Shown: positions 6,422 through 32,900 of the stretch, one piece after another
Layout of the letters: every line of letters starts with the position of its first letter
Numbering within the stretch: the stretch's first letter is position 1
Origin: an uncultured Myxococcales bacterium
Lineage (GTDB): Bacteria; Myxococcota_A; Polyangia; Fen-1088
Assembly (NCBI GenBank): GCA_937889515.1
Contig: CALAOV010000227.1
Coordinates: 1-32,941 of the forward strand
Direction of reading: 5' to 3'
Length of the DNA: 32,941 nucleotides
Made by a program: the position numbers and the translations under genes
The notes under the pieces: generated by a model
Seen by the model: only the letters and a program-made list of their open reading frames with translations
What the model was told of the DNA's origin: nothing
Databases searched by the model: none

Positions 6422-8032
6422 GTGAGGACCCTCTTCATGTTTCCATCTCCGCATCTGGCAACGGACCGACACAAGGGCACGAGGGGTCGCAGCAACGCAT
6501 TCTTTGGCAGGTGGGGATGGTGGGTAGTGGCGGTTTGGCTCGCATCTGCAACGGCGGCGGCGCAAGAGGGATCGCCGAGGGCGGGGAGTGCCGGCGCAGA
6601 TACGGGCAAACCTCCGGGTGTCATCGCATTGCCAGACGCCGCGACTCCCGAGGCAGCCTCCGTTGCTGCGGCAGCGGCAGCCGCAACGGCTGAACGCGAA
6701 GCCAAGGAGGCCCGTGAGCGCGCGGCGCTGCGCGCGGATCTGGACGCGCTCCGCTCGGAGCTCGCGGTGGAGCGGGCCGCACGCGCGTCCGCCGAGACGG
6801 CGCTGGCCGCGCATCTAGATATGCTGTCGACGGAGGTCAGGCAGGAGCCTCCGGAAGTGCTCACCGCGCGCCTCGGGTTGAGCCTCACTGGCTACGTGCA
6901 GGCCGATTGGGTGGTCAAGAACCAACTGTCTCAGGATCAGCTCAATACCTCGGGCGTCCCCCTCAATCAGGACCAGATCATGATTCGGCGCGCTCGCTTG
7001 CGCGCCTCGTTAGACCGTTGGTGGGTAGCGGGGCTTCTCGAATTCGACGGCAACACGGTGAACGGTGCGCAAGCGCGCCTCATCGGTGCCGAAGCCTCGT
7101 TGAAGTGGCCGCCGGAACGAGGCAACCCATTGCCGATTCTCATGGCGACGGTCGGCCTTTTCAAGATCCCATTCGGATTCGAGGTCGGACAGAGCGATCG
7201 CGAACGGCTCTTTTTGGATCGCTCCACGGCGGAACATGGATTGTTCCCAGGTGAATACGACGCCGGCGTGCGTCTCATGGGTGGCTGGCGGTTCACCCGC
7301 TACGCGCTGGCAGTCATGGACGGCGAACCGATCGGCGAGAGGACCTTTCCGCTTCGCGATCCGAACAGCTCCAAGGATGTGGTCGGTCGGGTCGGAATCG
7401 AAACGCCCATTACGCCCGCGGTATGGGTAGCCGGTGGCTTCTCGGGCCTGAGCGGAAAGGGATTCCACGCCGGTACGCAGGCGACGAAATCGACCGTGCA
7501 ATGGAACGACCTGAATGGCAACGGCGTGCTCGACCCCGGCGAGACCGTGGTCATTCCGGGAGCCTCGGCGGTTGCGTCGCAGAATTTCTCCCGCTTCGGC
7601 TACGGGGGCGACCTGCGCATCGGCGTGAATGAGCCATCGCTGGGAGCCACGGTGCTCTACAGCGAGATCTATTGGGCCAAGAACCTCGACCGGGGCATCC
7701 TTCCGGCCGATCCGGTCAGCTTCGGCCGCGACTACCGCGAGCTCGGCCTCTACGTCGGCATCACGCAGGACGTGGGGCCGCATGCGCAGGCGGGCATTCG
7801 CTACGATTTCTATAATCCGGATGCCGATTCGGTCAATACCGTCATGGGCGCGACCACACCCGCCGCCCTCGCCTATCAGACGCTGGCGTTCGCCGCGGCG
7901 TTGCGCGCGACGTCGGGCCGGTTGATTGCCGAATTCGACCTCAATCGCAATCACAACGGTCGCGACCTTCAGGGAAACCCGACCAATCTGGCCGCGGACG
8001 CATTCATCATTCGCGGCGAGGTGAGCTTCTGA
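6422..8032 (+). CDS. Phosphate-selective porin O/P-like outer membrane beta-barrel with N-terminal coiled coil
   Basis: Signal-like WWVVAVWLASATAAAQ, heptad-rich AEREAKEARERAALRADLDALRSELAVERAA, then OprO/P-like barrel (LSLTGYVQADWVVKNQ, MIRRARLRASL, GLFKIPFGFEVGQSDRERLFLDRS). GTG 6422 or ATG 6437 start. Confidence 0.7.
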   Translation: MRTLFMFPSPHLATDRHKGTRGRSNAFFGRWGWWVVAVWLASATAAAQEGSPRAGSAGADTGKPPGVIALPDAATPEAASVAAAAAAATAEREAKEARERAALRADLDALRSELAVERAARASAETALAAHLDMLSTEVRQEPPEVLTARLGLSLTGYVQADWVVKNQLSQDQLNTSGVPLNQDQIMIRRARLRASLDRWWVAGLLEFDGNTVNGAQARLIGAEASLKWPPERGNPLPILMATVGLFKIPFGFEVGQSDRERLFLDRSTAEHGLFPGEYDAGVRLMGGWRFTRYALAVMDGEPIGERTFPLRDPNSSKDVVGRVGIETPITPAVWVAGGFSGLSGKGFHAGTQATKSTVQWNDLNGNGVLDPGETVVIPGASAVASQNFSRFGYGGDLRIGVNEPSLGATVLYSEIYWAKNLDRGILPADPVSFGRDYRELGLYVGITQDVGPHAQAGIRYDFYNPDADSVNTVMGATTPAALAYQTLAFAAALRATSGRLIAEFDLNRNHNGRDLQGNPTNLAADAFIIRGEVSF

Positions 8033-8976
8033 TGCGGCGCGCGGCGAGTCTCTTGGGGCTGGGCGCCATTGCCTTTGGTTGCGGCGGCGCCAGCTCGCAG
8101 TCGGGCGTTACGGCGTATCTGCAGCTCGCGAATGCGCAGTTCGTCCCGGGCGCCCTCGTCCCCGGGCCCGACGCCGGAGTCGACGCCGGCGCCACGGGGC
8201 CGGCCATCCACGGTGTGAATTTCTTGACCACCAAGATCTATCCGGGAGTCGAGAACCTTCCCCTGTCCGGCGACGTCCAGGAGGGTTCGAGCGTGCTGAT
8301 CGGCCTCGCGAACGATGCCGGCTACTGGATTGTCCCCACGCCCTTCCTCGATCCTCAGACCCCGAACAACTTCGCCTTTCAAACGAAGATGTCGTTTTCG
8401 CCTCTGACACCTATGGGGAATCAGATCCTCATCCTCCGGGGCGTCGACGCCGCCGGGAACATCGGACCGGCGCAGCAGTTTACCCTGGATGTCACGCCGC
8501 CGATCCCGACCGGCACGCTGGTCATAACGCTCGAGTGGGACACCGAGTCCGACATGGACCTGCACGTCGTCGTCCCAAACCCGAACGACGCGACCATGCC
8601 GATCGAGATCTGGTCGAAGGCGCCGGTCGGCCTGCCGCCCCGCGTACCGGGCAATGCGCCGCCGACCAAGGACGAGCTCGCCGCCGAAATCGCCGCCGCC
8701 GGTGCGCTCGACTTCGACTCCAACGCCGCCTGCGTCATCGACGGCCGCCGCCAGGAGAACGTGATCTACACGCAGCCGCCACCGTCGGGGACCTACACCG
8801 TGCGGGTCGACGCCTTTTCGCTCTGCGGCCAGGCCGACGCCCAGTGGCAAGCCGTGGCCACCACGCCGGACGGCCAGATCGTCTCGCCGGCGATCTGGGA
8901 AGCGACCGACGCGGACACCCGCGGCAACCACGGCGTGGGCGCCGGGCGGCTGGCCTTCGAATTTTCGATTCCGTGA
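8032..8976 (+). CDS. Lipoprotein with DUF2135/YfaP-like C-terminal domain
   Basis: Lipobox IAFGCGGASS; VITLEWDTESDMDLHVVVPNP...SGTYTVRVDAFSLCG. TGATG overlap with the porin stop. Confidence 0.65.
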   Translation: MRRAASLLGLGAIAFGCGGASSQSGVTAYLQLANAQFVPGALVPGPDAGVDAGATGPAIHGVNFLTTKIYPGVENLPLSGDVQEGSSVLIGLANDAGYWIVPTPFLDPQTPNNFAFQTKMSFSPLTPMGNQILILRGVDAAGNIGPAQQFTLDVTPPIPTGTLVITLEWDTESDMDLHVVVPNPNDATMPIEIWSKAPVGLPPRVPGNAPPTKDELAAEIAAAGALDFDSNAACVIDGRRQENVIYTQPPPSGTYTVRVDAFSLCGQADAQWQAVATTPDGQIVSPAIWEATDADTRGNHGVGAGRLAFEFSIP

Positions 8977-8997
8977 AACAAGCAGGAAGGGGAAAAA

Positions 8998-9774
8998 ATG
9001 GGTTCCAACATCTTGATGCAGAAGCTGGTGTTCGTGGCGCAGATCGCGAGCCAGGCGGTGCTCTACGTGCTGCTCGCCCTGTCGGTGCTCTCGATCGGCG
9101 TCATCATCGAGCGCTGGTGGTACTTCCGGCGGCGGCGCGACAACCTGGACATCCTGGCGGACCGGCTGCGCAAGGCCTTCGGGCGCGGCGATCTGGCGGC
9201 GGCGCGGCAGCTCCTGGGGAACAGCCCTTCGGTCGAGGCGCAGATCGTCCACGAGGCGCTCGACTGGTACGACGACGGGCCCGACGCCGTCGAGCAGATC
9301 CTCGCCAAGGCCACCCGCCTGCGGCGCAAGACGTTCGAGGGCGGCTTGTTGTTCCTCGGCACGCTCGGCAACAACGCCCCCTTCATCGGCCTCTTCGGAA
9401 CGGTGCTCGGCATCGTGACGGCGTTCCGCGAGCTCGGCAACAACTCGATGGGCGCCATGGGCAACGTCATGGGCGGTATCGCCGAGGCGCTCATCGCGAC
9501 CGCGGTCGGCATCCTCGTCGCGTTGCCGGCGGTCATTTTCTACAACGTCTTCCAGAAGAAGGGCGTCGACATCGAAGAACAGGCGGCGGCGCTGGGCAAC
9601 GTCGTGAGCGCGTCGATGCGTTCGCTGCCCCGCGGCGACACCAAACGGGCTGCGGCCGTCGATGGCCCGGCGGCCGCGACGGGCGCTTCTGCAGCGTCGG
9701 CGGCTTCGGCAGCTTCGGCAGCTTCGGATCGCAAGATCGAGCATGTCGCCCGCACCGTCGAGGTGGAGGCCTAG
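8998..9774 (+). CDS. exbB: MotA/TolQ/ExbB proton channel family protein
   Basis: LGTLGNNAPFIGLFGTVLGIVTAFRELG...GGIAEALIATAVGILVALPAVIFYNVF. Confidence 0.9.
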   Translation: MGSNILMQKLVFVAQIASQAVLYVLLALSVLSIGVIIERWWYFRRRRDNLDILADRLRKAFGRGDLAAARQLLGNSPSVEAQIVHEALDWYDDGPDAVEQILAKATRLRRKTFEGGLLFLGTLGNNAPFIGLFGTVLGIVTAFRELGNNSMGAMGNVMGGIAEALIATAVGILVALPAVIFYNVFQKKGVDIEEQAAALGNVVSASMRSLPRGDTKRAAAVDGPAAATGASAASAASAASAASDRKIEHVARTVEVEA

Positions 9775-10194
9775 ATGGCCGGCACGATGGCGACCGGCCG
9801 GGGCCGGGCGCGAACGATCGCGCAGATCAACGTCACGCCGCTGGTCGACGTGGTGCTGGTGCTGCTGGTCATTCTGATGGTCGCCTCGACCTACATCGTC
9901 GCGCAGACGCTCAAGGTGCAGCTCCCGCGGGCCAAGTCGACCGATGGAACGGCCGACAAGCCGACCAAGGTCGAGATCCTCAAGAACGGCAGCTACCGCT
10001 GGAACGAAGAGCCGGTGGTCGAGTCGGCGCTGGCCGACAAGATGAAGGCCGCCGTGACGGCCGACTCCGAGATGAGCCTGGTGGTGAGCGCCGACAAGGA
10101 GGTCATGCACGGCAACGTGGTGCACATCCTCGACCTGGCCAAGATCGCCGGGATCACGAAGTTCGCCATCAACGTCCAGCAGAGCGGCGAGTAG
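9775..10194 (+). CDS. exbD: ExbD/TolR biopolymer transport protein
   Basis: GRARTIAQINVTPLVDVVLVLLVILMVAS...VQLPRAKS. ATG directly abuts the ExbB stop. Confidence 0.9.
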   Translation: MAGTMATGRGRARTIAQINVTPLVDVVLVLLVILMVASTYIVAQTLKVQLPRAKSTDGTADKPTKVEILKNGSYRWNEEPVVESALADKMKAAVTADSEMSLVVSADKEVMHGNVVHILDLAKIAGITKFAINVQQSGE

Positions 10195-10206: not shown

Positions 10207-10920
10207 TTGCGGTTAGGGACCGTCGTCCTTTCGGTCGGCTTGCACGTGGGGCTGGCGGTCGGCCTGGTGGCCGTCGCCCAGAAGCGCGAGCTGCGTCGCC
10301 GCGCCATCTCGGTTGCCGTCACCGAGGAGAAGAAGAAGGTCAAGCCGGCCAAGCCGCCCGCACCGCCCAAGCCGATCGCCCGCCCGGCCGCCGCGAAACC
10401 GGTCGCCGTGGCCAAGGCCGACGCGCCCGTCGCGGTCGCGCACGTCGCGGCGGCGCCCATGGTGACCAACCTCAGCATGTCGAACGCCGGTCTCGACATC
10501 GGACCGGGAATTGGCCTCGAAGGGCGGGCCGCCAAGCCGGCCGCCGCGGCGCCCGTCAAGGTGGCCTCCGCGCTCTCCGAGGCCCGCACGCGCCGCACGC
10601 AAGAAGAAGCCGGCGGCGCGGATGCGCCCTGCGAAGAGGAACCGACCAAGGCGGTCGCGATCGTCAAGACGCCCATCGACTACACGCTGTATCCGCAAGC
10701 CCAGGCCGACGGGATCGAAGGCAAGTTCAAGGCCCGCGTGATCGTCGACGTCAACGGCGAGGTCACTTCCGTCGAGGTCGTCTCGGGCGTGGATCCGGGC
10801 CTCGACGCCGCCATCGTTGCGGCGCTGCAGCGCTGGCGCTTCAAGCCCGCGATGGCCTGTGGCAAGGCGGTCGTTGGCGAGCCATTCGTCGTCACGAGAA
10901 CCTTCGAGCTCGGCGACTAG
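10207..10920 (+). CDS. tonB: TonB family energy transducer
   Basis: N-terminal TM, Pro/Lys-rich linker VKPAKPPAPPKPIARP, C-terminal YPQAQADGIEGKFKARVIVDVNGEVTSVEVVSGVDPGLDAAIVAALQRWRFKPA. TTG start. Confidence 0.85.
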   Translation: MRLGTVVLSVGLHVGLAVGLVAVAQKRELRRRAISVAVTEEKKKVKPAKPPAPPKPIARPAAAKPVAVAKADAPVAVAHVAAAPMVTNLSMSNAGLDIGPGIGLEGRAAKPAAAAPVKVASALSEARTRRTQEEAGGADAPCEEEPTKAVAIVKTPIDYTLYPQAQADGIEGKFKARVIVDVNGEVTSVEVVSGVDPGLDAAIVAALQRWRFKPAMACGKAVVGEPFVVTRTFELGD

Positions 10921-10926
10921 AGTGGA

Positions 10927-13623
10927 ATGAAGCGCGCCCTCGTCCTGTCGATGCTGTCGATCTGTCTGTCCGCCTGGCCCGCTCGCGCGCAGGAGAGCGG
11001 CGGCGACTCGGGTCCAGTCGTCACCAAGCCGCCCAAGCTGGTGAAGTTCGTTCCCGCGATCTACCCGCAGGACAAACACGACGCGGGCGTCACCGCCTCG
11101 GTCCTGCTTTCGATCGAGATCGGCGCGGACGGCGGCATCGGCGAGGTCCAGGTGGTCCAGAGCGCCGGGCCCGACTTCGACGCGGCGGCGGTGACCGCCT
11201 GCAAGCAGTTCATCTTCGAGCCGGCCGAGATCGACCACCAGCCCGCGCCGGTCAAGATCACCTACAAGTACGAGTTCACGATCGTCGAGCAAATGGTCAA
11301 GGCGGGGCCGCAGATCAACTTCGACGGGATGGTCCTGGAGCGCTTCAAGAAGCGACCCCTGCCCCGGGTCTCGATCACGCTGCTCGATCTAGGATCGCTC
11401 AGGGCAACCTCCGACGAGGACGGCCACTTCGCCTTTCTCGACGTGCCGCCGGGCAAGCACAAGATCGAGATCTCCAACCCCAGGCTGATGACCGTCACGA
11501 CGGAAGAAACAATCGCGGCGGGCAAGCGGCGCACGGTGAAGTACTACCTGGAGGAAAAGGAAGAGGGCGTCGACGACGCGGCCGTCGTGCGCGCGCCCCG
11601 CATCAAGAAGGAAGCCGTCGAGACCCGCATCCGGACCGAGGAGGCGCGGCGGGTCCCCGGGACCCAGGGCGACACGCTCAAGGTGGTGCAGAACCTCCCC
11701 GGCGTGGCCCGCTCGTCGTTCGGGTCGGGCGAGCTGATCGTGTGGGGGGCGGCGCCCAATGAAACCAAGGTCAACGTCGACGGGGTCGAGATCCCCGCGC
11801 TCTATCACGTGGGCGGCTTCCGCTCGACCATCAACTCGGATCTCGTGCGGTCGATCGATCTGTCGCCCGGATCCTACGGCGCCGAGTACGGCCGCGGCCT
11901 GGGTGGGTTGGTCCGGATTGACCTCGGGTCGCTCCCCAAGGACGGCACCCACGGCTACGTCGCCGCCGATGTCCTCGACACCTCGGCCCTGATCTCGACG
12001 ACGCTCACGCCCCGCCTCCGCCTGGCGATTGCCGGGCGCATCAGCTACCTCGATCGCGAGCTGCCGCTGGTGACCTCGGCCGACGTGGGCGACTTCGTCC
12101 CCATCCCCCGCTACGACGACTACCAGGCGCGCGCGACGCTGGCGCTGCGGCAGGACGAGGAGCTGGCGGTGACCTTCCTGGCGTCCGACGACCACTTGCG
12201 GCGCGCCATCCCCTCCGACGATCCGCTGGAGGTCCGCTCGGAGAACACCGACACCTCCTGGAAGCGCCTCATCGTCCACTACACGCGCCTGCTCCCGGAC
12301 GGTGCGTCGGTCGCCGTGACGCCGTCGATCGGATACGACTCGTCGAGCGACACGGAGCTGTTCGGGAGCACGCCCGTCGATCTCAGGTCCAGCGCCTGGC
12401 AGTACGGGCTGCGCGGGAGCTACCGCCGCAAGGTGGCCACGTCGACCACGCTGTCGTTCGGAGTCGACATGCAGGCGCGCGCCGCCACGCTCGATCGGGT
12501 CGGGTCGCTGACCTTGCCGGCTCGCGAGGGCGACATCACCGTCTTCGGTCTGCGTCCGCGCAACGACATCGCCGCCGACCACTGGAACGTCACCACCATC
12601 GACACGGCCCCCTACGCCAACGCCGAGATCGCGCTGGGGCGCTTCTCGCTGGTCCCGGGGCTGCGCTTCGAGCCGCTGCTCGTCGAGGGGAGCCCGTCGC
12701 TGCCGGCCGGCGGCGCCCCACCGCGCGGGTACGCCAGCTTCTCGCTCCCCGAGAACCCGGTCGACCAGCTGCCGGGCGATCCGGTGTCGCGCGCCGTGCG
12801 GGCGGCCCGGATCTTCGCCTGGCTCCCCAACCCCCGTCTCACCGCCTCCTTCCACGCCAGCAAACGCCTCACGCTGACCGCGGGCGGCGGGGTCTACGCC
12901 CAGCCACCCGATCCCCAGGACATGAGCCCGGTGTTCGGCAACCCGACGGTGTCGCTGTCGCGCGCGGTGCACCTGTCGGGTGGCTTCGGCTACAAGCTGC
13001 GCCCGACCTTGACCCTGGAGGTCATCGGCTTTTACAAGCGGATGTTCGACCTGGTCTCGCGCAACGAGAACCCGTCGCCGCCCGTGGCCGACTCCCTGAC
13101 CCAGGACGAGATCGGCCGGGCCTACGGCGGTCAGCTCTTGCTGCGCCAGGAGCTGCTGCGCGGCTTCTTCGGCTGGATCACCTATTCGCTGACCCGCAGC
13201 GAGCGGCGCGACCACCCCGACACCAACTGGCGGCTGTTCGATTTCGATCAGACGCAAGCGCTGGGGCTGGTGGCCAGCTATCAACTGGGGCACGGCTGGA
13301 CGTTCGGCTCGCGGTTCCGCTACACCACCGGCTTCCCGCGGACGCCGGTGGTCGGGACGTATACGGACGTCGCCAACGGGCAGACCGCTCCGCTTTTCGG
13401 CGCGCAAAACTCGATCCGGATCCCGGCCTTCTATCAGCTCGACGCGCGGGTCGAGCGCTCGATCGTCTACCGCCGCGTGAAGATCAACGTCTTTCTCGAC
13501 GTGCAGAACGTGACCGATCGACAGAACCCGGAGGAGATCATCTACACCTCCGATTTTTCTCGGCGTGCCTACATCACCGGCTTCCCGACGCTGGCGGTGG
13601 TCGGCGCACGATTGGAGTTCTGA
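10927..13623 (+). CDS. TonB-dependent outer membrane receptor with fused N-terminal TonB C-terminal domain and carboxypeptidase-regulatory-like domain
   Basis: TonB-CTD-like KFVPAIYPQDKHDAGVTASVLLSIEIGADGGIGEVQVVQSAGPDFDAAAVTACKQFIFEPAEI; CarboxypepD_reg-like ATSDEDGHFAFLDVPPGKHKIEISNP; plug VQNLPGVARSSFGSGELIVWGAAPNETKVNVDGVEIP; barrel ending in ITGFPTLAVVGARLEF. Confidence 0.88.
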   Translation: MKRALVLSMLSICLSAWPARAQESGGDSGPVVTKPPKLVKFVPAIYPQDKHDAGVTASVLLSIEIGADGGIGEVQVVQSAGPDFDAAAVTACKQFIFEPAEIDHQPAPVKITYKYEFTIVEQMVKAGPQINFDGMVLERFKKRPLPRVSITLLDLGSLRATSDEDGHFAFLDVPPGKHKIEISNPRLMTVTTEETIAAGKRRTVKYYLEEKEEGVDDAAVVRAPRIKKEAVETRIRTEEARRVPGTQGDTLKVVQNLPGVARSSFGSGELIVWGAAPNETKVNVDGVEIPALYHVGGFRSTINSDLVRSIDLSPGSYGAEYGRGLGGLVRIDLGSLPKDGTHGYVAADVLDTSALISTTLTPRLRLAIAGRISYLDRELPLVTSADVGDFVPIPRYDDYQARATLALRQDEELAVTFLASDDHLRRAIPSDDPLEVRSENTDTSWKRLIVHYTRLLPDGASVAVTPSIGYDSSSDTELFGSTPVDLRSSAWQYGLRGSYRRKVATSTTLSFGVDMQARAATLDRVGSLTLPAREGDITVFGLRPRNDIAADHWNVTTIDTAPYANAEIALGRFSLVPGLRFEPLLVEGSPSLPAGGAPPRGYASFSLPENPVDQLPGDPVSRAVRAARIFAWLPNPRLTASFHASKRLTLTAGGGVYAQPPDPQDMSPVFGNPTVSLSRAVHLSGGFGYKLRPTLTLEVIGFYKRMFDLVSRNENPSPPVADSLTQDEIGRAYGGQLLLRQELLRGFFGWITYSLTRSERRDHPDTNWRLFDFDQTQALGLVASYQLGHGWTFGSRFRYTTGFPRTPVVGTYTDVANGQTAPLFGAQNSIRIPAFYQLDARVERSIVYRRVKINVFLDVQNVTDRQNPEEIIYTSDFSRRAYITGFPTLAVVGARLEF

Positions 13624-14630
13624 TGAAGAGCCCCGGCAGCCACATTTCCGAATCGGCGACACCGTCGCTCGCGGTGGCATCGTTCCTGGTCGCCGCGGCG
13701 TTTGCCGCCACCGGGTGCAAGCCCGACCTCGGGGCGCCGACCTCGCTCGTCACCGGGCCGCGCTTGCTGGCGATCCGCGGAACGCCGCCCGAGGCCGCCG
13801 AGAGCGCCGGCGTCGTCTACGACGCGCTGGCCGTGACAGTCGACGGCACCGTCGCGGCGCCCGCGATCACCTGGGCGCAGTGCCTGGCGCCCAACCCGCC
13901 GGCCAACGGCAACGACGTGAGCAGCGCCTGCCTCACGATCCCCGACGACGCCGGACCGGCGCCAACGTTCATGGCCACCGTGCCGGCCAACGCCTGCATG
14001 CTGTTCGGCCCCGAGACGCCGCCGCCCCAGAAAGGCCAGCCGCCCACGCGGCCCGCCGACGCCGATACGACCGGCGGCTACTACCAGCCAATACGCGCTA
14101 CCTGGACCACCGATTCGGGCGACCCGCTGCTCTCGTTCGCGCTCGAGCGCGTCCTCTGCCGGCTCGCCAACGCGCCGGTCGACGTGGCGGGACAGTACGC
14201 CTCCGACTATCTCCCCAACAACAATCCCCAGCTGGCCGACCTCGTGCTCGATCCCGCGGGGATTGCGGCGCCGATCTTCACGGCGGGTCAGACCACGCCG
14301 CCGCCCCCCGGCTCGGTGGGCGCGGGACAGACGGTCCTCTTGCAGGCGGATTGGAGCCCCTCGTCGGCCGAGACCTTCCTGGTGTGGGACGTCGTCTCGC
14401 TGAGCCTGGTGATGCAGCAGGAATCGCTGCGTCTCTCCTGGTACGCCACCGCGGGCAGCTTCGAGCACGACGCGACCGGGCGCAGCGACACCGGGAGCGA
14501 CACCGAGCCCTTCACGCAGAACAGCTGGACCGCCCCCACCACCGCGGGTCCGGTGCACCTCTGGACGGTGCTACGCGACGACCGCGGCGGCATCGACTTC
14601 GCCGAAGCCGAAATCGACGTCACGCCGTAG
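13623..14630 (+). CDS. Predicted lipoprotein, unknown function
   Basis: SFLVAAAFAATGCKPDLGAPTS lipobox. TGATG overlap with the receptor stop. Confidence 0.7.
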   Translation: MKSPGSHISESATPSLAVASFLVAAAFAATGCKPDLGAPTSLVTGPRLLAIRGTPPEAAESAGVVYDALAVTVDGTVAAPAITWAQCLAPNPPANGNDVSSACLTIPDDAGPAPTFMATVPANACMLFGPETPPPQKGQPPTRPADADTTGGYYQPIRATWTTDSGDPLLSFALERVLCRLANAPVDVAGQYASDYLPNNNPQLADLVLDPAGIAAPIFTAGQTTPPPPGSVGAGQTVLLQADWSPSSAETFLVWDVVSLSLVMQQESLRLSWYATAGSFEHDATGRSDTGSDTEPFTQNSWTAPTTAGPVHLWTVLRDDRGGIDFAEAEIDVTP

Positions 14631-14711: not shown

Positions 14712-14736
14712 CCCGGTGGTCTACGCTGCCGCTCGT

Positions 14737-15477
14737 ATGAATCCGGAAACGAACCTCGACCGGCGCATCCTGGTCGTCGAGGACGAGCCCGACCTGAGGG
14801 AGCTGCTGACCTACAACCTGACGGCGGCGGGGTTCACCGTGCAGGCGACGGAGAACGGCGCCGATGGTCTCGATGCGGTGCAACGCTTCGATCCCGACGT
14901 CGTGCTTTTGGACCTCATGCTCCCCGACATTCCGGGCACGGAGGTCTGCCGGCGCATTCGCGGCGACCTCAACGCGCGCCAGCCGGCGGTCATGATGCTC
15001 ACCGCCAAGGGCGAGGAGATCGATCGCGTGGTCGGCTTCGAGCTCGGCGCCGACGACTACGTGGTCAAGCCGTTCAGCGTCCGCGAGCTGATCCTGCGGG
15101 TGGGCGCCATCCTGCGCGCGCGCCGGCCGGTACAATCGAACGCCCCCAACGCGCCCCAGCGCCGCCGCTACGTGGTCGGCCCGCTGGAGCTGGACGTCGA
15201 CGGCTACCACGTGTTCGTGGCCGGTGACGAGGTGCATGTCAGCACCCTCGAGATGCGCCTGCTGGTCTATCTGGTCGAGCACCGCGGGCGCGTCCGCTCG
15301 CGCGAGGATCTGCTGGAGGACGTCTGGGGCTACAAGCCCGGCGTCTCCACCCGGACCATCGACACGCACGTCAAGCGCCTGCGCGACAAGCTGGGCGAGG
15401 CGGGCGCGCTGGTCGAGACCGTGCGCGGCACCGGCTACCGCCTCTCGGCGGACCACCCGGTGGTCGTCAAAGATTAG
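14737..15477 (+). CDS. PhoB/OmpR-family winged-helix response regulator
   Basis: RRILVVEDEPDLRELLTYNLTAAGF...VVLLDLMLPDIPGTEVCRRIR...GADDYVVKPFSVREL...LELDVDGYHVF...RSREDLLEDVWGYKPGVSTRTIDTHVKRLRDKLG. Confidence 0.92.
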   Translation: MNPETNLDRRILVVEDEPDLRELLTYNLTAAGFTVQATENGADGLDAVQRFDPDVVLLDLMLPDIPGTEVCRRIRGDLNARQPAVMMLTAKGEEIDRVVGFELGADDYVVKPFSVRELILRVGAILRARRPVQSNAPNAPQRRRYVVGPLELDVDGYHVFVAGDEVHVSTLEMRLLVYLVEHRGRVRSREDLLEDVWGYKPGVSTRTIDTHVKRLRDKLGEAGALVETVRGTGYRLSADHPVVVKD

Positions 15478-21259: not shown

Positions 21260-23263
21260 TCAGCCCAGTGGCTTCCCCCGATCGGGCAATTGAATTCTGG
21301 TCGAGACGTCGTCTCCATCGAGGACCTGCCGGACCTTCCGGGTGAGCAACGCGGGCGTGAGCGGCTTCTGGACGAACGCCACGCCCGTCTCCAGCACGCC
21401 GTGGCGGACGATGCTGTCGTCCGTATATCCCGACATGCAGAGGACCTTCATCTCGGGCCGGGTCTGGGCGAGACGCTTGGCCAACTCCGGACCGCTCATC
21501 TGGGGCATCACGACATCCGTGAGCAGCAGATCGATCCCTCCCGGATGCCGCTCGCAGATGAGGAGCGCCTCGCCCGCGTTCTGCGCGGGGATGACCTGAT
21601 ACCCCTGCCGCCGCAGAATATTCAGGGCGATCGTGCGGACCTGCTCCTCGTCCTCGACGAGCAGGATGGTCTCGGTCCCGCGAAGGCTGGTCGGGGCAGC
21701 CTGCGGCCGCAACACGTCCACCTCCTCATCCACCCTCGGTAAGTAGACCTTGAAGGTCGTTCCTTTGCCGAGCTCGCTGTAGACCCAGATGTTGCCGCAA
21801 CTCTGCTGGACGATCCCGAACACGGTCGACAGTCCCAGGCCGGTCCCCTTCCCCATCTCCTTGGTCGTGAAAAACGGCTCGAAGATGCGTTTCTGGGTCT
21901 CGCGGTCCATCCCGGTCCCGGTGTCGCTCACGGCCAGCATCACGTAGGGACCAGGTTTGGTGGGCAGATGGCTCATGGCGTAGGAGCCGTCGAGGACCAC
22001 GTTGGCGGTCTCGATGGTGAGCTGGCCGCCGGTCGGCATCGCATCGCGCGCGTTCACGACCAGATTCAAGATCACCTGCTCGATATGACTCGGGTCGACC
22101 TTGACCCTGCCCGACACTTTCGGTGGCAGGGACAGGAACGCCACATCTTCACCCAGAATGCGCTGGATCATCTTGTCCATGCCGGTCAACGCCTCGTGCA
22201 GATCGATCACCTTCGGTTCGAAGACCTGCTGTCGGCTGAACATCAGGAGCTGGCGGGTGAGCCCGGCGGCCCGCGTCGCGGCCTTGGAGATCTCCCCCAA
22301 ATCGCTGCACAGCGGATCGGAGGGCTTCAGGTCGGAGAGAATGAAGTCGGCGTAGCTCAAGATGACCGAGAGGACGTTGTTGAAGTCGTGCGCGACGCCG
22401 CCCGCCAACCGGCCGACCGCCTCCATCTTCTGCGCCTGACGGAGCTGCTCCTCGCTCTGCCGCAGGGCCTGCTCCGCCTGCCTCTGTCCGGCCTCCGCTT
22501 GCTTGCGTTTCGTGAGGTCGACAATGAACGCGATGGTCTTGGGATACTCCAGCATCGCGACCCCGACCAGGACCGGTACCCGGCTCCCGTCCTTGCGAAA
22601 CGTCTCCGTCTCCCAGGGGGGGGCGACGCCCGTCGCCTGCAGCTGTTCCACGGAGCGGGCCCCCAGGTCAGCAAGCTCGGGCGGCGTCAGGTCTGCCCAG
22701 CGCACGGCGCCCTGGACCAGCTCTTCGCGTGAGTATCCGACCATCTGCAGATAGGCGTCGTTCGCGTCGGAGATGTTGCCGTGAACGTCGGCGATCACGA
22801 TGCCGATGATTCCAGCCTGGCTGAGCCGGCTGAAGCGAACCTCGCTCGCCCGCAGGGCCTCCTCGGCCCGTCGATGGGCAAGCCGCTCCTTGGCTTCACG
22901 AACCTCGCGCTCGACCGCCGGGGTCAACCGACCGAGCTTGTCCTTGAGGACATAGTCGTGCGCTCCGGCACGCATCGCCTCGACCGCAGCCTCTTCACCG
23001 ATCGTTCCCGACACGATGATGAGGGGCAGGTCGAGCCGACTTTCTTCCAGAATAGCGAGCGCCGCGGGGACGCTGAATTTGGGCATCGACCAGTCCGAGG
23101 TGACCAGATCCCAAGGCTGGCGTTTCAGGGCCGCGCGCATCGCCTCAGGGGTCTCGACACGTTCGAATTCGACGGACCGACCTCCGCGCCGCAACTCTCC
23201 AACGATTAACTTGGCATCGGTCGCCGAATCCTCCGCCATCAGAACGCGCAAGACGGGGCTCAT
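21260..23263 (-). CDS. Hybrid histidine kinase REC-PAS-HisKA-HATPase_c-REC
   Basis: VLMAEDSATDAKLI...TSDWSMPKFS; PAS FSRLSQAGIIGIVIADVHGN; GGVAHDFNNVLSVI; NLVVNARDAMP; GKGTGLGLSTVFGIV; terminal REC ILLVEDEEQVRTIAL...LLTDVVMPQMSG. Confidence 0.93.
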   Translation of the reverse strand: MSPVLRVLMAEDSATDAKLIVGELRRGGRSVEFERVETPEAMRAALKRQPWDLVTSDWSMPKFSVPAALAILEESRLDLPLIIVSGTIGEEAAVEAMRAGAHDYVLKDKLGRLTPAVEREVREAKERLAHRRAEEALRASEVRFSRLSQAGIIGIVIADVHGNISDANDAYLQMVGYSREELVQGAVRWADLTPPELADLGARSVEQLQATGVAPPWETETFRKDGSRVPVLVGVAMLEYPKTIAFIVDLTKRKQAEAGQRQAEQALRQSEEQLRQAQKMEAVGRLAGGVAHDFNNVLSVILSYADFILSDLKPSDPLCSDLGEISKAATRAAGLTRQLLMFSRQQVFEPKVIDLHEALTGMDKMIQRILGEDVAFLSLPPKVSGRVKVDPSHIEQVILNLVVNARDAMPTGGQLTIETANVVLDGSYAMSHLPTKPGPYVMLAVSDTGTGMDRETQKRIFEPFFTTKEMGKGTGLGLSTVFGIVQQSCGNIWVYSELGKGTTFKVYLPRVDEEVDVLRPQAAPTSLRGTETILLVEDEEQVRTIALNILRRQGYQVIPAQNAGEALLICERHPGGIDLLLTDVVMPQMSGPELAKRLAQTRPEMKVLCMSGYTDDSIVRHGVLETGVAFVQKPLTPALLTRKVRQVLDGDDVSTRIQLPDRGKPLG

Positions 23264-23709
23264 GACACACCCGTACGGGTAGGTGGCGGCTCGTTCAAGA
23301 GCAGCCAGAAGAGACCGAGCGTCTTCGCCGCCTCGGCGAACTCGACAAAGTCTACGGGCTTTCGCACATAGGCATTCGCTCCCAGCGAATAGCCACGAAC
23401 GATATCTTCATGTTCCTTGGAGGCGGTCAGGATCACGACGGGAAGACACTTCGTCCGCTCGTCGGCCCGGATCCTTTTCAGGACCTCGAGGCCGTCAATT
23501 CGCGGCAGCTTCAAGTCGAGCAAGACGACGGCCGGCAGCACGGTCATGTCGCGCCCTTCGTACTTGCCCGTTGCGAAAAGGTAGTCGAGGGCCTCGGCAC
23601 CGTCGCGAACGACAACAATGTCGTTGGTGACACCCGACTTCTTGAAGGCCCGGATCGTCAGCTTCTCGTCTGTCGGGTTGTCTTCGACCAATAGTAAGAT
23701 CTTGTTCAC
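23260..23709 (-). CDS. Single-domain response regulator (CheY/Rcp1-like)
   Basis: ILLLVEDNPTDEKLTIRAFKKSG...VVLLDLKLPRIDGLEVLKRIRAD...ILTASKEHEDI...GANAYVRKPVDF. Stop overlaps the hybrid-kinase ATG. Confidence 0.93.
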   Translation of the reverse strand: MNKILLLVEDNPTDEKLTIRAFKKSGVTNDIVVVRDGAEALDYLFATGKYEGRDMTVLPAVVLLDLKLPRIDGLEVLKRIRADERTKCLPVVILTASKEHEDIVRGYSLGANAYVRKPVDFVEFAEAAKTLGLFWLLLNEPPPTRTGVS

Positions 23710-23710
23710 G

Positions 23711-23878
23711 TCACCCTCCCGTCCCCTGATGTGTGTGGTCGATCCAAACCGTATTTTCGACCAGGGCGTTCGTCGACCGGACGCCGAGGGCGAGAACGGT
23801 TCCCAGGATCCCCAGGACGGTCCATGGCCCGAGCAAATCCACGCGCCTCGCCAGAGCGTGCGCCCCGTCGCGCGTCAC
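23711..23878 (-). pseudogene. 55-aa CHASE3-like membrane stub (possible truncated kinase N-terminus)
   Basis: [58 protein letters not shown] start overlaps the upstream kinase stop (GTGA); TM helix followed by CHASE3-like ENTVWIDHTHQ, then abrupt stop. Confidence 0.5.
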
Positions 23879-26800
23879 GTCGCCCCCTGTGAGATGCCGG
23901 GCAGAACGAAATAGAAGACCGCGCCCTCGCCCACCTTCCCCTCGGCCCAGATCCGGCCGCCGTGGCGATTGACGACCCGTTGGACCGTCGCGAGGCCGAT
24001 GCCGGTACCCGGAAACTCCGCCACGGTGTGAAGTCTCTGGAAGGGGGCAAAGAGCTTGCCCGCGTGGGCCATATCGAACCCGGCGCCGTTGTCCTTCAGA
24101 AACAGGGTCGTCGCACCGTTCTTTTCGAGGGCCCCGAACTCGACGCGCGCGGCGGACGCATGCGCGGTGAACTTCCAGGCGTTGCCGATCAGGTTTTCGA
24201 AAAGAGCGCGCATCAGTTGGAGATCGGCCTCGGCCGAGAGGTGGTCTTGGACGACGATCTCGACTGCGCGCTCGGGTTCCCTCCCGGCACTCTCGGCGGC
24301 GACGGTGCGAACGAGCGCCGAGAGATCGATCCGCTGGGGTCTCCAGTCGCCTCTCGTCACCCGAGACAGAGACAGGAGGGCGTCGATGAGATTCCCCATC
24401 TTCCCAGCGTTCTCCTGAATCACCTGCAGACAATCCCGGCCCTCCGCATCGAGCTTGTCCGCGTAATCTTCGAGGAGGATTTGAGCGAACCCGTTCATTC
24501 CGCGCAGAGGCGCGCGCAGATCGTGGGCGACGGAGTAACTGAAGGCTTCGAGCTCTCGGTTCGCCGCCTCGGCGGCGTTCTTGGCGACCGCCAGCGTCTT
24601 TTCGGCCTGTCTCCGTTCGGTGATGTCCCGCACGACCTTCGAGATGCCAACGACGCGCCCGGAGGGATCCCGCACCGGCGAGATCGTCACGGAGACATCG
24701 ATGTCTCGCCCATCCTTCCGCCGCCGTATCGTATCGAGCTGCATTCCCTCCCCCTTGGCGAGAGTCTCGAGAATGGTCCATTCCTCTTCCTCGAATCCGG
24801 GTGGGACGATGACGGAAATGAGCTTTCCGACGATCTCGTCCGCCGCATATCCAAACATCCGCTCCGCGCCCGGGTTCCAGCTGGTGATGGCGCCCTGGAG
24901 CGTCTTACCGACGATCGCATCGTCGGACGAGTCCACAATGGCCGCCAGCCTGGCCCTTTGCCCTTCCGCCCTCTTGCGCTCCGTGATGTCTCGAATCGCG
25001 CCCGACACGAGCAGGCCGTCCTTGGTCTGGAGCGGGCTCAGGCTGATCTCGATCGGGAACTCGGTGCCGTCTTTGCGCCGCCCGTGGAGCTCCAGACCGG
25101 CCCCCATCGGTCGGATGGTCGGCGTCTGAAAATAACGGGTGCGGTGCGCCGGGTGGGCCTGCCGAAAGCGCTCGGGGATGAGGACCTCGATCGGCTTTCC
25201 GATGATTTCGGACCGAGCATACCCAAAAAGCGTTTCGACCTGCCCGTTCACCAGTGAAATGACGCCGTCGCCTCCGGCGATCACCACAGCGTCGGGGGCG
25301 GATTCGAGCAGGCCCCGGAACTTTGCGTCGGCCTCCCGTTCTTCACGCAATTTCTCGATGGCCGCCTGTGCCTGCTTGCGCGCGGTGAGATCGAGGACAA
25401 AGGAGATACAATCCTTGGCGTCGCCCTCCAGCATGGCCGAGCCGATCAGGACGGGGATCCGCGTCCCGTCCTTTCGGAGATACTCCTTCTCGCGAAGTCC
25501 ACCGATCCCCGTCGCCGTCAGTTGCGCCGTAGCTCGGGCGTCGACGCCCCGCCACTCGGGCGGTGTGAGCTCCCGCCAGACGACGGCTCCCGAAACGATC
25601 TCGTGACGCGAATAGCCCAGGAGATTGAGAAGAGCGTCGTTGACCTGCGAGACGTTTCCGGCAAGGTCGCTAGCGATAATGCCGATGATCCCCGAGTCTG
25701 AAAGGCGGGCGAATCGACCTTCCGCCCTTCGGAGGTCGTTCACCGCCTTCTCCGCGACGTCGCGGGCCGCCCGTTCGGCGGCGTACGAGCGGGCGTTGCC
25801 GATGGCCAGGGCCGCGTGGTCGGCGACGCGTTCGACCATTTGGAGATCGTCCTCGCTGAACGGATCGTCGGGATCGCTGCGCATGAGGTTCGCTATCCCG
25901 ACCACCTTGCCCCGGCAGAGCAGCGGCAGCGTGATCGAGCTGGTGACCGCGAGCCGTTCGAGGAAGGGTCGGTATTTCGGCTCGCTCGACGCAGCGAAGT
26001 CGGCCGGGTTGACCCGGGGCGTGAGGAGAGTCTTTCCCGTCGCGGCCACGCGCCCCGAGATTCCCTCGCCGACGCGCTGACGGCCCGACAACATCACCTC
26101 GCGGGTCGCCGCGAGCAGGTTTGGATCTCGGTGGTAGGTCGCTCCCGTCGACTCCAACCATTCCCCATCCTCGGTCACTGCCCGGATCACGCACATGTCA
26201 CCGAAGAGCTGGCCGAGGCGAGTTGCCACGACGTCCAGCAGTCGATTGTCGTCGTAGGTCGCCTCACTGAACTCGCGCGAGGCGTCGGCCAAGATCCGGA
26301 AGCGATCGGTGATTCGCTTGCGCTCGGCGGTCTCGCGCCGGGCGTCGGTGAGAAGACGCGCGTTCGATATGGCAAACGCCGCATAGCCCGCGAGGTTCTG
26401 CGCCAGGTCGAGATCGTGCTCGTCGAAAGCCGGACTGTCCGCGCGAAAACGGGCCAGCGTGAGCTGGCCGATGGATCGATCGTGGACCCGCAGCGGGACG
26501 ATCAACATGCTGTGCATTCCGATCCGCTGCATGAAGTCGAAGTACCGCGCCGTCGTCCGCGGCGGACGCAGCTGTTCGAGATCGAGCTTCGGCGCGAAGA
26601 ATGGTTCCCCCGTTTCGATGACCCGCCGGGTCACCGGGTGCGTTTCGAGGACAAATGGCTCCAGGAACGCATCGCGCACCTGGCGAAGGGCTTCGGGATC
26701 CGGGTCGTATGCGGCGACCGGTGTCAGGGTCCCGCCGTCATCGGACAGAAGCAAAACAATGCAGTAGTCCTTGACGACCTCGGCGACCCGTTGGGCAACG

Positions 26801-26922
26801 GTGTCGAGAAGAAGTTGCGAATCCTCCGTCGCCTCCGTGAAGGCGCGCATCGATTCAGACAGAACCCGGAGGCGCTCCTCGAGGCGGGCACGGGTCGCGT
26901 CGGCGCTCGCCGACGAGCTCAA
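23875..26922 (-). CDS. Multi-sensor histidine kinase GAF-GAF-PAS-PAS-PAS-HisKA-HATPase_c (phytochrome-kinase-like)
   Basis: Two GAF domains, three PAS repeats each ending in DLTARKQAQ / DITERKRAE / [56 protein letters not shown]. Confidence 0.93.
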
Positions 26923-27191
26923 CTGCGCACCCGACGCTGTCGTGCGGCCTGCTGAAGGACCCTCCCGTCCATCCCGCCTCCCGTGTCTCGTGGCAATGGG
27001 TCCGACTCACTCCGAGATCTCGACGACAGCCCACACAGCTAGATGCGCCGAAAATGATGGAACAGCGAATCATCATCATAGACTCATCGAGGAGTCACGC
27101 TTTACTTTATTGACGGTTTGTCTCGCAGACGTCGCGGAGCTCCCGAGGCTCATCGACGCCTCCCTTCGGGCCTCACAACCGATTGCTCAGG

Positions 27192-27560
27192 CTACGGATT
27201 CCCGGCCAGCCGGCCCTCGGTCGCTTCGAGGGCAAGCCGGTGCATCTCCGACCGACGGGCAATCCCGACGGCCAGGTCGGCATCGGACTGCGCGCGCGCC
27301 AGGAGCAGCAGAGCCCGCGCGTCGCCCGAGCGGGCCAGCGTCTTGGCGACCTCGGCCTGGTCGATCGCCAGCTCCAGGTGCATCCGGGCGGTGGACATCC
27401 CGAAGGCACCGTGCTCGCCGGCGGCCGGCTCGGCGAACATCGCGATGGTCTTGGCGCTGCGGACCTTGGCTTCGAAATGCTCCACCTGATCGCGGGGAAG
27501 CTGTACCGACGCGCACCCGACCACCCCGAGAGCTGCGAGAGAGAAAATCAGCTGGTTCAT
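27192..27560 (-). CDS. DUF4398-like lipoprotein
   Basis: MNQLIFSLAALGVVGCASVQLPRDQVEHFEAKVRSAKTIAMFAEPAAGEHGAFGMSTARMHLELAIDQAEVAKTLARSGDARALLLLARAQSDADLAVG. Confidence 0.75.
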   Translation of the reverse strand: MNQLIFSLAALGVVGCASVQLPRDQVEHFEAKVRSAKTIAMFAEPAAGEHGAFGMSTARMHLELAIDQAEVAKTLARSGDARALLLLARAQSDADLAVGIARRSEMHRLALEATEGRLAGNP

Positions 27561-27576
27561 CACGGGGATTCTCAGG

Positions 27577-27592
27577 AGCAACGAACGGGCCA
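27577..27592 (-). promoter_or_regulatory. Sigma54-type -24/-12 promoter (TGGCCCG-TTCG-TTGCT)
   Basis: Reverse complement of 27577-27592; one mismatch to TGGCACG-N4-TTGCW with correct GG/GC spacing, just upstream of ATG 27560. Confidence 0.55.
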
Positions 27593-27674
27593 GCCGGGAC
27601 CGACGCCCAGATCCAGTAACTGCGCGGAGATCCGGGACGTCCGCCCGTCGCTTCTTCGTCGCGCCCGGCGACGC

Positions 27675-27696
27675 GGGTGTCGGCCCGCCGACACCC
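27675..27696. promoter_or_regulatory. Perfect 9-bp inverted repeat GGGTGTCGG-cccg-CCGACACCC, candidate enhancer-binding-protein site
   Basis: Exact dyad in the divergent lipoprotein/NtrC-type intergenic region, about 120 bp upstream of the predicted sigma54 start site. Confidence 0.5.
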
Positions 27697-27779
27697 ACCG
27701 GAAGCTCATCCAGCCGGTCGTATCCGCCGCGGCCTCCGCCGTCCGATTCGCCGGTAGGCCATAGGCGTACAATGCCCCC

Positions 27780-29135
<1,356 letters not shown>

Positions 29136-29137
29136 CT

Positions 29138-30520
29138 TCAATCCCCGGCGGGTTCGGGCTCTCCCAGCCATTTGCGGAGGGTCTTGGGATCGACGCCCAG
29201 CCGCTCGGCCGCCTTGCCGCGATGACCGCCGGTCTGGCCCACCGCCCAGACGGCATAGCGCCGTTCCAGCTCGCGCATGGGAAGGATGTCGCCGTTGAAC
29301 TCGAGCGGCTCGGCGGTCTGGGTCCGTCCAATCCCGTCGGGGAGATCGGCGGCCAGCACCTCGACGTTCTGTCCCAAAAGGGCGATCTTCTCGACGGCGT
29401 GCGCCAGCTCGCGGACGTTGCCGGGCCAGCGGTAGCGGCGCAGGGTGGAAAACGCCTCCGCGGAGAAACGCCGGATCGGCGACTGGGGATACTTCGCGCG
29501 CACCTCCGCCACGAAGTGCTCCACCAGCTCGGGGATGTCTTCCGTGCGATCGCGGAGGGGGGGAATGACGATGCCGACGACGTCGAGCCGATAGAGGAGA
29601 TCCTCGCGAAACCTCTGGTCGCGCACGGCTTGCGCCAGATCGCGGTGGGTCGCGGCGATGATGCGAACGTCGACCTGCCGGACCTTGGTGCCGCCGACCG
29701 GGCGGATCGCGCCGCTCTCGAGGACGTGCAGCAGCTTGGCCTGCAGCCCCGGCGTCATCTCGGCGATCTCGTCGAGGAACAACGACCCTCCATCTGCCTC
29801 GGCGAAGAGCCCCCGTCGGTCGGCGACCGCGCCCGTGAACGCCCCCCGGACGTGTCCAAACAGCTCGCTCTCCAGCAGCGATTCGGGGAGCGCCGCGCAG
29901 TTGACCGAGACGAAAGGGCCCTCGCTGCGGCGGCTGTCGGCGTGCAGCGCGCGGGCGACCAACCCCTTGCCGGTTCCCGTCTCGCCCGTGATGATCGCCG
30001 GCGCGGGCGCGTCGGCCAGACGCTTCACACGCTCGCGGACCGCGCGGATGGCCGCGCTCCCGCCGATCAGGTTGGAGATGGAAAACCGGGTCCGCAGGGC
30101 GGTCTTGAGGATCGAAGCCTCACGCCGGACCCGCAGCTCCTCGAGCGCCCGCCCCAGGAAGATCGCCAGCTCCTCCTGCTTGAACGGCTTGGTCAGGTAG
30201 TGGTAGGCGCCCTGGCGGATCGACTCCACGGCGGTGTCGACGGCGCTGTAAGCCGTCATCACGATCACCGGTCGATCGGGATCCAGCCTGCGGGAGGCCG
30301 ACAGCAGCTCCAGCCCGTCGACGCCGGGCATCCGCAGATCGGTCACCATCGCATCGATGAAAGCCTCCGTGTTCAGGTGATCGAGCGCCTTTTGGCCCGA
30401 GCCGACGGCCACCGCGTCGTATCCCCGGTCGAAAAGCCCGTCCACGATCGTTCGTGCCATCTCGAGGTTGTCGTCGACAACCAGGATTCGGCGGCGTCGT
30501 TCAGGGATTGGGGATGGCAT
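29138..30520 (-). CDS. NtrC-family sigma54-dependent response regulator
   Basis: REC RILVVDDNLEMARTIVDGL...MVTDLRMPGVDG; AAA+ [65 protein letters not shown]. Start ATG 30520. Confidence 0.95.
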   Translation of the reverse strand: MPSPIPERRRRILVVDDNLEMARTIVDGLFDRGYDAVAVGSGQKALDHLNTEAFIDAMVTDLRMPGVDGLELLSASRRLDPDRPVIVMTAYSAVDTAVESIRQGAYHYLTKPFKQEELAIFLGRALEELRVRREASILKTALRTRFSISNLIGGSAAIRAVRERVKRLADAPAPAIITGETGTGKGLVARALHADSRRSEGPFVSVNCAALPESLLESELFGHVRGAFTGAVADRRGLFAEADGGSLFLDEIAEMTPGLQAKLLHVLESGAIRPVGGTKVRQVDVRIIAATHRDLAQAVRDQRFREDLLYRLDVVGIVIPPLRDRTEDIPELVEHFVAEVRAKYPQSPIRRFSAEAFSTLRRYRWPGNVRELAHAVEKIALLGQNVEVLAADLPDGIGRTQTAEPLEFNGDILPMRELERRYAVWAVGQTGGHRGKAAERLGVDPKTLRKWLGEPEPAGD

Positions 30521-30592
30521 CGACGCTGGCCGGTCGCCTGACCCGGAGTCTACCGCCAGACCCGGGCCAGGTCGCAGGAAGTGCAATCGGCC

Positions 30593-31105
30593 CTAGCTTG
30601 CCGATCGGCCATAGCCAGTCGGCGCGTGCGCCGGAACGACCTTGACGGCGCCGATCTGGACCGGCTCCGTTCCCCGGACGACCGCCGAGGGGGACTCGAG
30701 CGTCATCTCTCGATAGCAACTGAGACCGCCGCGGCTCATGAACCGGAGCTGAAAGGTCTGCGTCCGGCCGGGGTCGAGCGCCACGGCCTGGTTCGCGCCC
30801 CAGGTGGAAGTCCGGATCGCGCTTCCATCGGGCGCACCGAGCCGAAAGCCATCGCCGTGGACGGCAATCGGTGTCGACGCTCCGTTGCGAACCTCCACCT
30901 CGAGGGTGGTCTCGACCAGGTCGTTTCCGGGTTGTTCCGTTTCGACCGTCTGGCTACAGCTCTGGCGTAGCACCGCGACCTGGATCCCGTCCTTGACCGC
31001 GGCTCCGCCGTTTTGCACCGGTGGCTGGAGGCCACAGGCGAGCGCCAGCGTCGTGAAGCCGAACGTGGCGGAAAAAAACGTGGCACTCAGTCTCTGTTTG
31101 GTCAT
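30593..31105 (-). CDS. Predicted lipoprotein, unknown function
   Basis: Signal/lipobox FTTLALACGLQPP; SD-like AGGAGGG before ATG 31105; beta-rich remainder. Confidence 0.7.
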   Translation of the reverse strand: MTKQRLSATFFSATFGFTTLALACGLQPPVQNGGAAVKDGIQVAVLRQSCSQTVETEQPGNDLVETTLEVEVRNGASTPIAVHGDGFRLGAPDGSAIRTSTWGANQAVALDPGRTQTFQLRFMSRGGLSCYREMTLESPSAVVRGTEPVQIGAVKVVPAHAPTGYGRSAS

Positions 31106-31129
31106 CGAGAACCCTCCTGGGGCAGATGG

Positions 31130-31145
31130 AGCAGGCCGCGTGCCA
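31130..31145 (-). promoter_or_regulatory. Sigma54-type -24/-12 promoter (TGGCACG-CGGC-CTGCT)
   Basis: Reverse complement of 31130-31145; one mismatch to TGGCACG-N4-TTGCW, correct spacing, 25 nt upstream of ATG 31105 with an SD in between. Confidence 0.6.
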
Positions 31146-31197
31146 AGCCCACGACCGCCCTGGATGCGCGGTTCGCGCCTTGGCTCGGGCGACCCGA

Positions 31198-31231
31198 GGG
31201 AAATTCTCCCGAACGGGACGGAAATTCTCCC
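31198..31231. promoter_or_regulatory. Tandem dyad-symmetric element, candidate upstream activating sequences
   Basis: GGAAATTCTCCC at 31199-31210 and 31220-31231 (exact 12-mer, 21-bp period); first copy is a GGGA-N5-TCCC dyad. Confidence 0.5.
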
Positions 31232-31262
31232 CCGTTGACCCGTTCGCCCGTTCGCCCGTTTG
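31231..31262. repeat. 8-bp tandem repeat, four units (CCCGTTGA CCCGTTCG CCCGTTCG CCCGTTTG)
   Basis: Direct reading. Confidence 0.85.
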
Positions 31263-31274
31263 CCGCTTTCGAGC

Positions 31275-32594: not shown

Positions 32595-32900
32595 GCTCGC
32601 GTTCCTATCACCTCTCGCGATCTCTTGCTGCCGAGCTCCTAGAAGCTCCAGCGCGAGCAGATTGGCGGCCATGGGTGGTGTCCAATGTGAACGGTCAGCA
32701 AGGAGCGGGCCGACCATGACCCCCGCGAGGCCCGCGGTCCCATTTCAAGACAATCGGGAGGATTTCCGCCGGGGTGGGGAAAGATTCCGCGGGCGCCGCC
32801 GCGGGCGGAGCCGATCTCTACGTGGTGCAGGCCCCACCAGCGGGCACGGTCGTTGCTAGTTTTGCGCGCAACGATGCGCAGTGAGGTGCTCGGATCCGCG

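Follow-up and report, generated by a model that had tools for sequence, protein, structure and literature searches.

The C-terminal domain (CTD) of TonB normally sits on the inner-membrane protein TonB, where it grips receptors. The TonB box of FoxA is largely concealed as long as the receptor is empty, and it pairs with TonB via beta-augmentation (PMC6699858). Five arrangements were distinguished in a published survey of receptor N-termini, and TonB_C is not among them (PMC6434023). The precedents for N-terminal modules are mixed, because the CarboxypepD extension of Oar is dispensable, as the receptor without it still supports PopC secretion (PMC6434023), whereas SusC lacking its CarboxypepD extension gave no detectable growth on levan, for which a biogenesis role was allowed by the authors (PMC7782687). 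Searches of open-licence main texts yielded no account of a receptor-borne TonB CTD or of its function. At the level of sequence, this kind of receptor is already known, as the curated MxcH family (NF038079, myxochelin receptor) starts with TonB_C.

Organisation of the receptor gene and its operon

A stretch of 32,941 nucleotides from an uncultured Myxococcales bacterium, hereafter the window, was analyzed. Its receptor gene (10927-13623, +) is a single unbroken frame of 898 aa, to which the following features were assigned.

10927..13623 (+), TonB-dependent receptor gene, 898 aa (open frame; Pfam domains)
10927..10992 (+), putative signal peptide, residues 1-22 (by eye)
11023..11058 (+), lead-in PPxLxxFVxA, residues 33-44 (column conservation in 95 fused receptors vs 45 free TonBs; short strands in the model)
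11059..11280 (+), TonB_C, residues 45-118 (PF03544, E=9.9e-11; TIGR01352; model pLDDT 90.6; Foldseek to TonB CTDs)
11326..11544 (+), CarboxypepD_reg, residues 134-206 (PF13620, E=3.5e-8)
11575..11595 (+), putative TonB box DAAVVRA, residues 217-223 (alignment with relatives)
11668..11907 (+), Plug, residues 248-327 (PF07715, E=4.4e-7)
11932..13620 (+), barrel region, approximately residues 336-898 (position; family evidence; C-terminal Phe)

The order TonB_C, CarboxypepD_reg and Plug is confirmed, with a putative, degenerate TonB box ahead of the plug and a probable barrel behind it. The earlier note had described a TonB CTD after the signal peptide, followed by a carboxypeptidase-regulatory-like domain, plug and barrel; the first three of these domains were borne out by Pfam, and TonB_C also by NCBIfam, with the signal peptide read by eye. 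The domain calls that it had called for on residues ~35-120 placed TonB_C at 45-118, above the Pfam cut-off; the corresponding DNA (11059-11280) falls within the stretch 10927-11300 of that note, and the peptide quoted there equals residues 46-102. PF03544 scored 42.4 bits (cut-off 24.6, E=9.9e-11, residues 45-118), TIGR01352 (tonB_Cterm) 42.7 bits over residues 45-116 (cut-off 27.1) and the PF07715 plug 30.8 bits (cut-off 23.9). The Pfam scan of the window receptor gave no barrel call, and PF00593 was matched by 11 of 23 aligned relatives. The receptor ends in Phe, which is the usual C-terminal residue of outer-membrane barrels.

The receptor gene lies within a series of closely spaced genes on the same strand.

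8998..9774 (+), exbB/tolQ-family gene, 258 aa (PF01618, E=2.2e-30)
9775..10194 (+), exbD/tolR-family gene, 139 aa (PF02472, E=5.3e-28)
10207..10920 (+), tonB, 237 aa, CTD at residues 162-226 (PF03544, E=6.5e-12)
13623..14630 (+), downstream gene with a lipoprotein-like signal (coordinates; signal by eye)

The TonB that had been proposed to be encoded just upstream of the receptor is indeed specified by an ordinary tonB (10207..10920, +), whose product has, as read from the sequence, an N-terminal hydrophobic helix, a Pro/Ala-rich linker and a CTD. Only 6 bases separate tonB from the receptor gene, and the start of the downstream gene overlaps the receptor stop (TGATG). For this downstream gene (13623..14630), no family was obtained in Pfam or NCBIfam scans. 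Directly upstream of exbB (window 6422-8976), a 536-aa porin-like protein and a 314-aa lipoprotein-like protein are encoded, neither of which had a Pfam match above cut-off; the two genes may be part of the same operon as exbB. A response regulator gene (14716-15477) is located downstream of the receptor, and the window also holds a cluster of signalling genes (21260-32717).

21260-23263 (-), hybrid histidine kinase
23875-26922 (-), multi-GAF/PAS kinase
27780-29135 (+), sigma-54 response regulator
31275-32717 (-), histidine kinase

Family and predicted fold of the TonB_C domain

Solved TonB chains were matched by the window domain alone at E=0.0016, and by a profile of 31 receptor-borne domains at E=4.6e-12, which had no receptor chain among its matches. 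Residues 29-121 were modelled with AlphaFold2 from an alignment of four rows (the window domain, its relative and both neighbouring TonB CTDs), yielding a pLDDT of 90.6, a value obtained with free TonBs within the alignment and by a program trained on solved structures. In Foldseek searches with this model, the best match was 6i97_D, the FoxA-bound TonB CTD (TM 0.84, 1.6 A), and TonB CTDs alone passed a threshold of E<=0.001. These results support a TonB CTD fold for the modelled domain. A full-length AlphaFold2 model from two rows had a pLDDT of 26.8 and was discarded. The membrane anchor and the Pro-rich linker of TonB are missing, as read from the sequence, and the domain starts ~20 residues past the putative signal peptide. 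Since it has no membrane anchor with which to transmit proton motive force, the domain is, judging from its layout, incapable of drawing on this force itself.

In a profile built from 23 full-length receptors, the front part matched solved TonBs, and the region of plug and barrel matched receptors of known structure (FepA, Cir, BtuB). Both chains of the solved receptor-TonB complexes 2gsk and 6i97 were thus matched by a single profile. Partners binding in trans elsewhere are joined in one chain here, which suggests that they might make contact in cis.

The fold also bears on the proposal of the earlier note that the domain could signal in a manner comparable to STN, relaying ligand occupancy to an inner-membrane regulator. 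Its position matches that of STN in other receptors, STN is missing from the window genome and rare in relatives, and FecR domains are common in these genomes. However, the predicted fold is that of a TonB CTD, with no STN among the Foldseek matches listed, and scanned window ORFs (part of those in the window) gave no hit to FecR or to an ECF sigma factor. When 115 ORFs neighbouring fused receptors were grouped, both were likewise missing from the 25 most frequent families, in a rough survey for which ORFs were picked by a simple codon-composition rule and single-member families mostly fall outside the listing. STN-like signalling is therefore poorly supported and considered very unlikely. STN had no Pfam match in the receptor; in a count of 39 searched genomes, there were at most 2 STN domains per genome and 0 in the window genome and its two genus mates, while TonB_C receptors were plentiful.

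Distribution of TonB_C-bearing receptors

In the window genome, 3 of 7 plug matches are accompanied by a TonB_C domain, and 3 of the 10 TonB_C matches above cut-off are on receptors. The taxonomic survey suggested in the earlier note was performed within the phylum. There, at least 98 of the 191 genomes have the full TonB_C-CarboxypepD-Plug arrangement, according to a hand count of matches spanning TonB_C through Plug among the matches listed. The MxcH profile was matched in all 59 genomes searched (the window genome and relatives), many of the matches beginning at TonB_C positions and lying in long frames. The oddity of a TonB CTD on a receptor, as implied beforehand, was overstated: the arrangement is routine in the phylum, and the MxcH family itself begins with such a domain. 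It is widespread and yet stands outside the five published N-terminal types (PMC6434023).

Receptor-borne TonB_C occurs on several receptor types, namely on those with CarboxypepD, on others that lack CarboxypepD but share the plug type, and on receptors whose plug is of another type. Receptors of the last type (plug motif like HSGGGKANQYFLRGFDADHGTDLALSIDGVPIN) were observed near a free tonB at L051:7045-7491 and L053:6021-6581. In some relatives, they adjoin NikR-family genes and are possibly nickel receptors. One further relative carries a tandem pair of long TonB_C-bearing ORFs (L064:2909-5767 and 7178-9955, -).

Age and origin of the fusion

A relative with 86% identity (L028) carries the identical arrangement. 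The TonB_C-receptor fusion is not an assembly artefact, because the arrangement recurs in this relative and in others phylum-wide. The search of genome contigs returned one close relative. In a plasmid tblastn search, no record covered 80% of the receptor query, and the best matches start at query residue 82 or later, past most of TonB_C.

A comparison set was assembled from 95 different domains borne by receptors and the CTDs of 45 free TonBs, the latter sampled mainly beside receptors. In a quick tree of 106 of these domains (95 columns, many unresolved forks), the free TonB group required 2 changes against a shuffled mean of 34. The window domain grouped with the domains of other receptors, and its neighbour TonB with other free TonBs. 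The main receptor-borne group had a support of 82, and five receptor-borne rows lie outside it at unresolved positions. The identity of the domain to its own neighbour TonB (33%) is close to that with other TonBs (32%). Compared with free TonBs (95 vs 45 sequences), the signature PPxLxxFVxAxYP is stronger in receptor-borne domains, and the final strand and YP motif are retained more strictly. Because receptor-borne domains part almost cleanly from free TonBs in one tree, the fusion is probably old rather than a recent capture of the adjoining tonB, and a single origin of the receptor-borne domain is likely.

That tonB adjoins the receptor could point to an assembly chimera or to a newly arisen fusion with this gene. 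However, both ORFs are separate and intact, and at least 98 of the 191 genomes share the arrangement, leaving such an accident a negligible probability. Fresh capture of the adjacent tonB was rejected, as the domain groups with those of receptors and the neighbour TonB is about as close to it as others are.

The TonB box and the possible role of the domain

Residues 217-223 (DAAVVRA) align with [YF]E[ATV]VVR[GA], the predominant motif among 70 aligned relatives. A TonB-box-like motif directly before the plug was detected in 37 of 76 sequences, compared with 2.3% of shuffles; the strict pattern used misses the window's own degenerate DAAVVRA. In four receptors lacking CarboxypepD, the TonB box lies only 33-47 residues past TonB_C. 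These alignments support retention of the TonB box in the receptor family. As the receptor follows exbB-exbD-tonB and its relatives retain the box, it is most likely powered in trans by an ordinary TonB, the adjoining upstream one being the likeliest, and is thus most likely an ordinary TonB client that bears an extra periplasmic module.

We propose that this module would be a stand-in for TonB that acts in cis. In the resting receptor, it would cover, or compete for, the receptor's own TonB box, and only when a ligand-loaded receptor meets the right energised TonB would the stand-in be swapped for TonB. As an outcome, transport would be gated, and the choice of TonB would be filtered in cells with several TonBs. 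This reading, in which the domain controls or screens what reaches the TonB box of its own receptor, is the leading proposal, with a probability of roughly 0.38 that was judged, as were the likelihoods of its rivals, rather than computed. The broader version, in which the TonB CTD would serve many receptors phylum-wide as a cis decoy, gate or partner filter until ligand and the right TonB are present, is doubtful. The identity of the domain, its predicted TonB CTD fold and the receptor-bound FoxA TonB CTD as nearest structure were counted in favor of gating, as were the retained last strand and YP motif, the presence of several TonBs per genome and the tonB close upstream. In CarboxypepD-less receptors, moreover, the TonB box would be near enough (33-47 residues) to be reached. 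Counted against gating were the conserved N-terminal strand, which might cover the box-binding edge, the conserved residues, which may serve the fold only, the degenerate TonB box of the window receptor and, by analogy, the dispensable CarboxypepD of Oar, the N-terminal module of another receptor.

TonB docking is a close rival to gating. Here, the domain would act as a handle that pairs with the CTD of inner-membrane TonB (CTD-CTD) and recruits the cognate TonB before the box is bound. CTD fragments of E. coli TonB can dimerise. In many loci, tonB is immediately upstream on the same strand (within 1.5 kb in 32 collected fused receptors), although other collected loci have no tonB nearby. Distances among receptor-borne domains follow those among neighbour TonB CTDs a little more closely than CarboxypepD distances do (partial r 0.42 vs 0.27, plug allowed for), but this correlation is weak, stems from related loci, and the difference carries no significance test. 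Regulation of TonB docking or pairing with TonB, as put forward in the earlier note, is plausible, while the specific handle described here appears somewhat unlikely.

Alternatively, the domain could be an envelope or biogenesis module that stabilises the receptor, assists in assembling it or anchors it to peptidoglycan, and does not act on TonB coupling. The TonB CTD binds peptidoglycan, which was counted for such a module, as was the loss of growth on levan upon removal of the SusC extension (PMC7782687). However, nothing specific points to this role, and a TonB CTD would seem ill-chosen for it on a receptor with a TonB box, so that we regard it as unlikely.

Returning to gating and docking, an action of the domain on TonB or on the TonB box would make it an intrinsic regulator of TonB coupling, which is difficult to study separately by other means. 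Such a regulator would be relevant to the question of how partners are kept separate among several TonBs and receptors.

Comparison with known systems

Receptors of the STN type (FoxA, FecA) resemble the window receptor in having a small globular domain before the TonB box. The domain itself is a different one, and the FecR/ECF partner of STN receptors was not seen among the ORFs scanned.

Oar of Myxococcus xanthus likewise has CarboxypepD_reg ahead of TonB box and plug, and a TonB system nearby (PMC6434023). Unlike in the window receptor, CarboxypepD is the described N-terminal extension of Oar, and a TonB CTD is not mentioned (PMC6434023).

In MxcH, as in the window receptor, TonB_C is followed by plug and barrel. 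Positions 1-91 of NF038079 correspond to TonB_C; they are matched by the window receptor at E=4.8e-18 and also by the upstream TonB. In total, the window receptor scores 64.6 bits where 925 are required of an equivalog, with only the front part matching, and its assignment as MxcH was ruled out by this score. Among the 59 genomes, the sole match above the cut-off (G054:C199:68884-70962, L029) lies in a frame of 716 aa and aligns from profile position 103 onward, so that it may be devoid of the TonB_C part. The presence of such a match in one genome of the class suggests that the phylum is Myxococcota.

Finally, the receptor-borne domain shares its domain family (PF03544) and predicted fold with the TonB energy transducer, but differs from it in being part of a receptor of the outer membrane, in lacking both membrane helix and Pro-rich linker, and in having a PPxL lead-in of its own.
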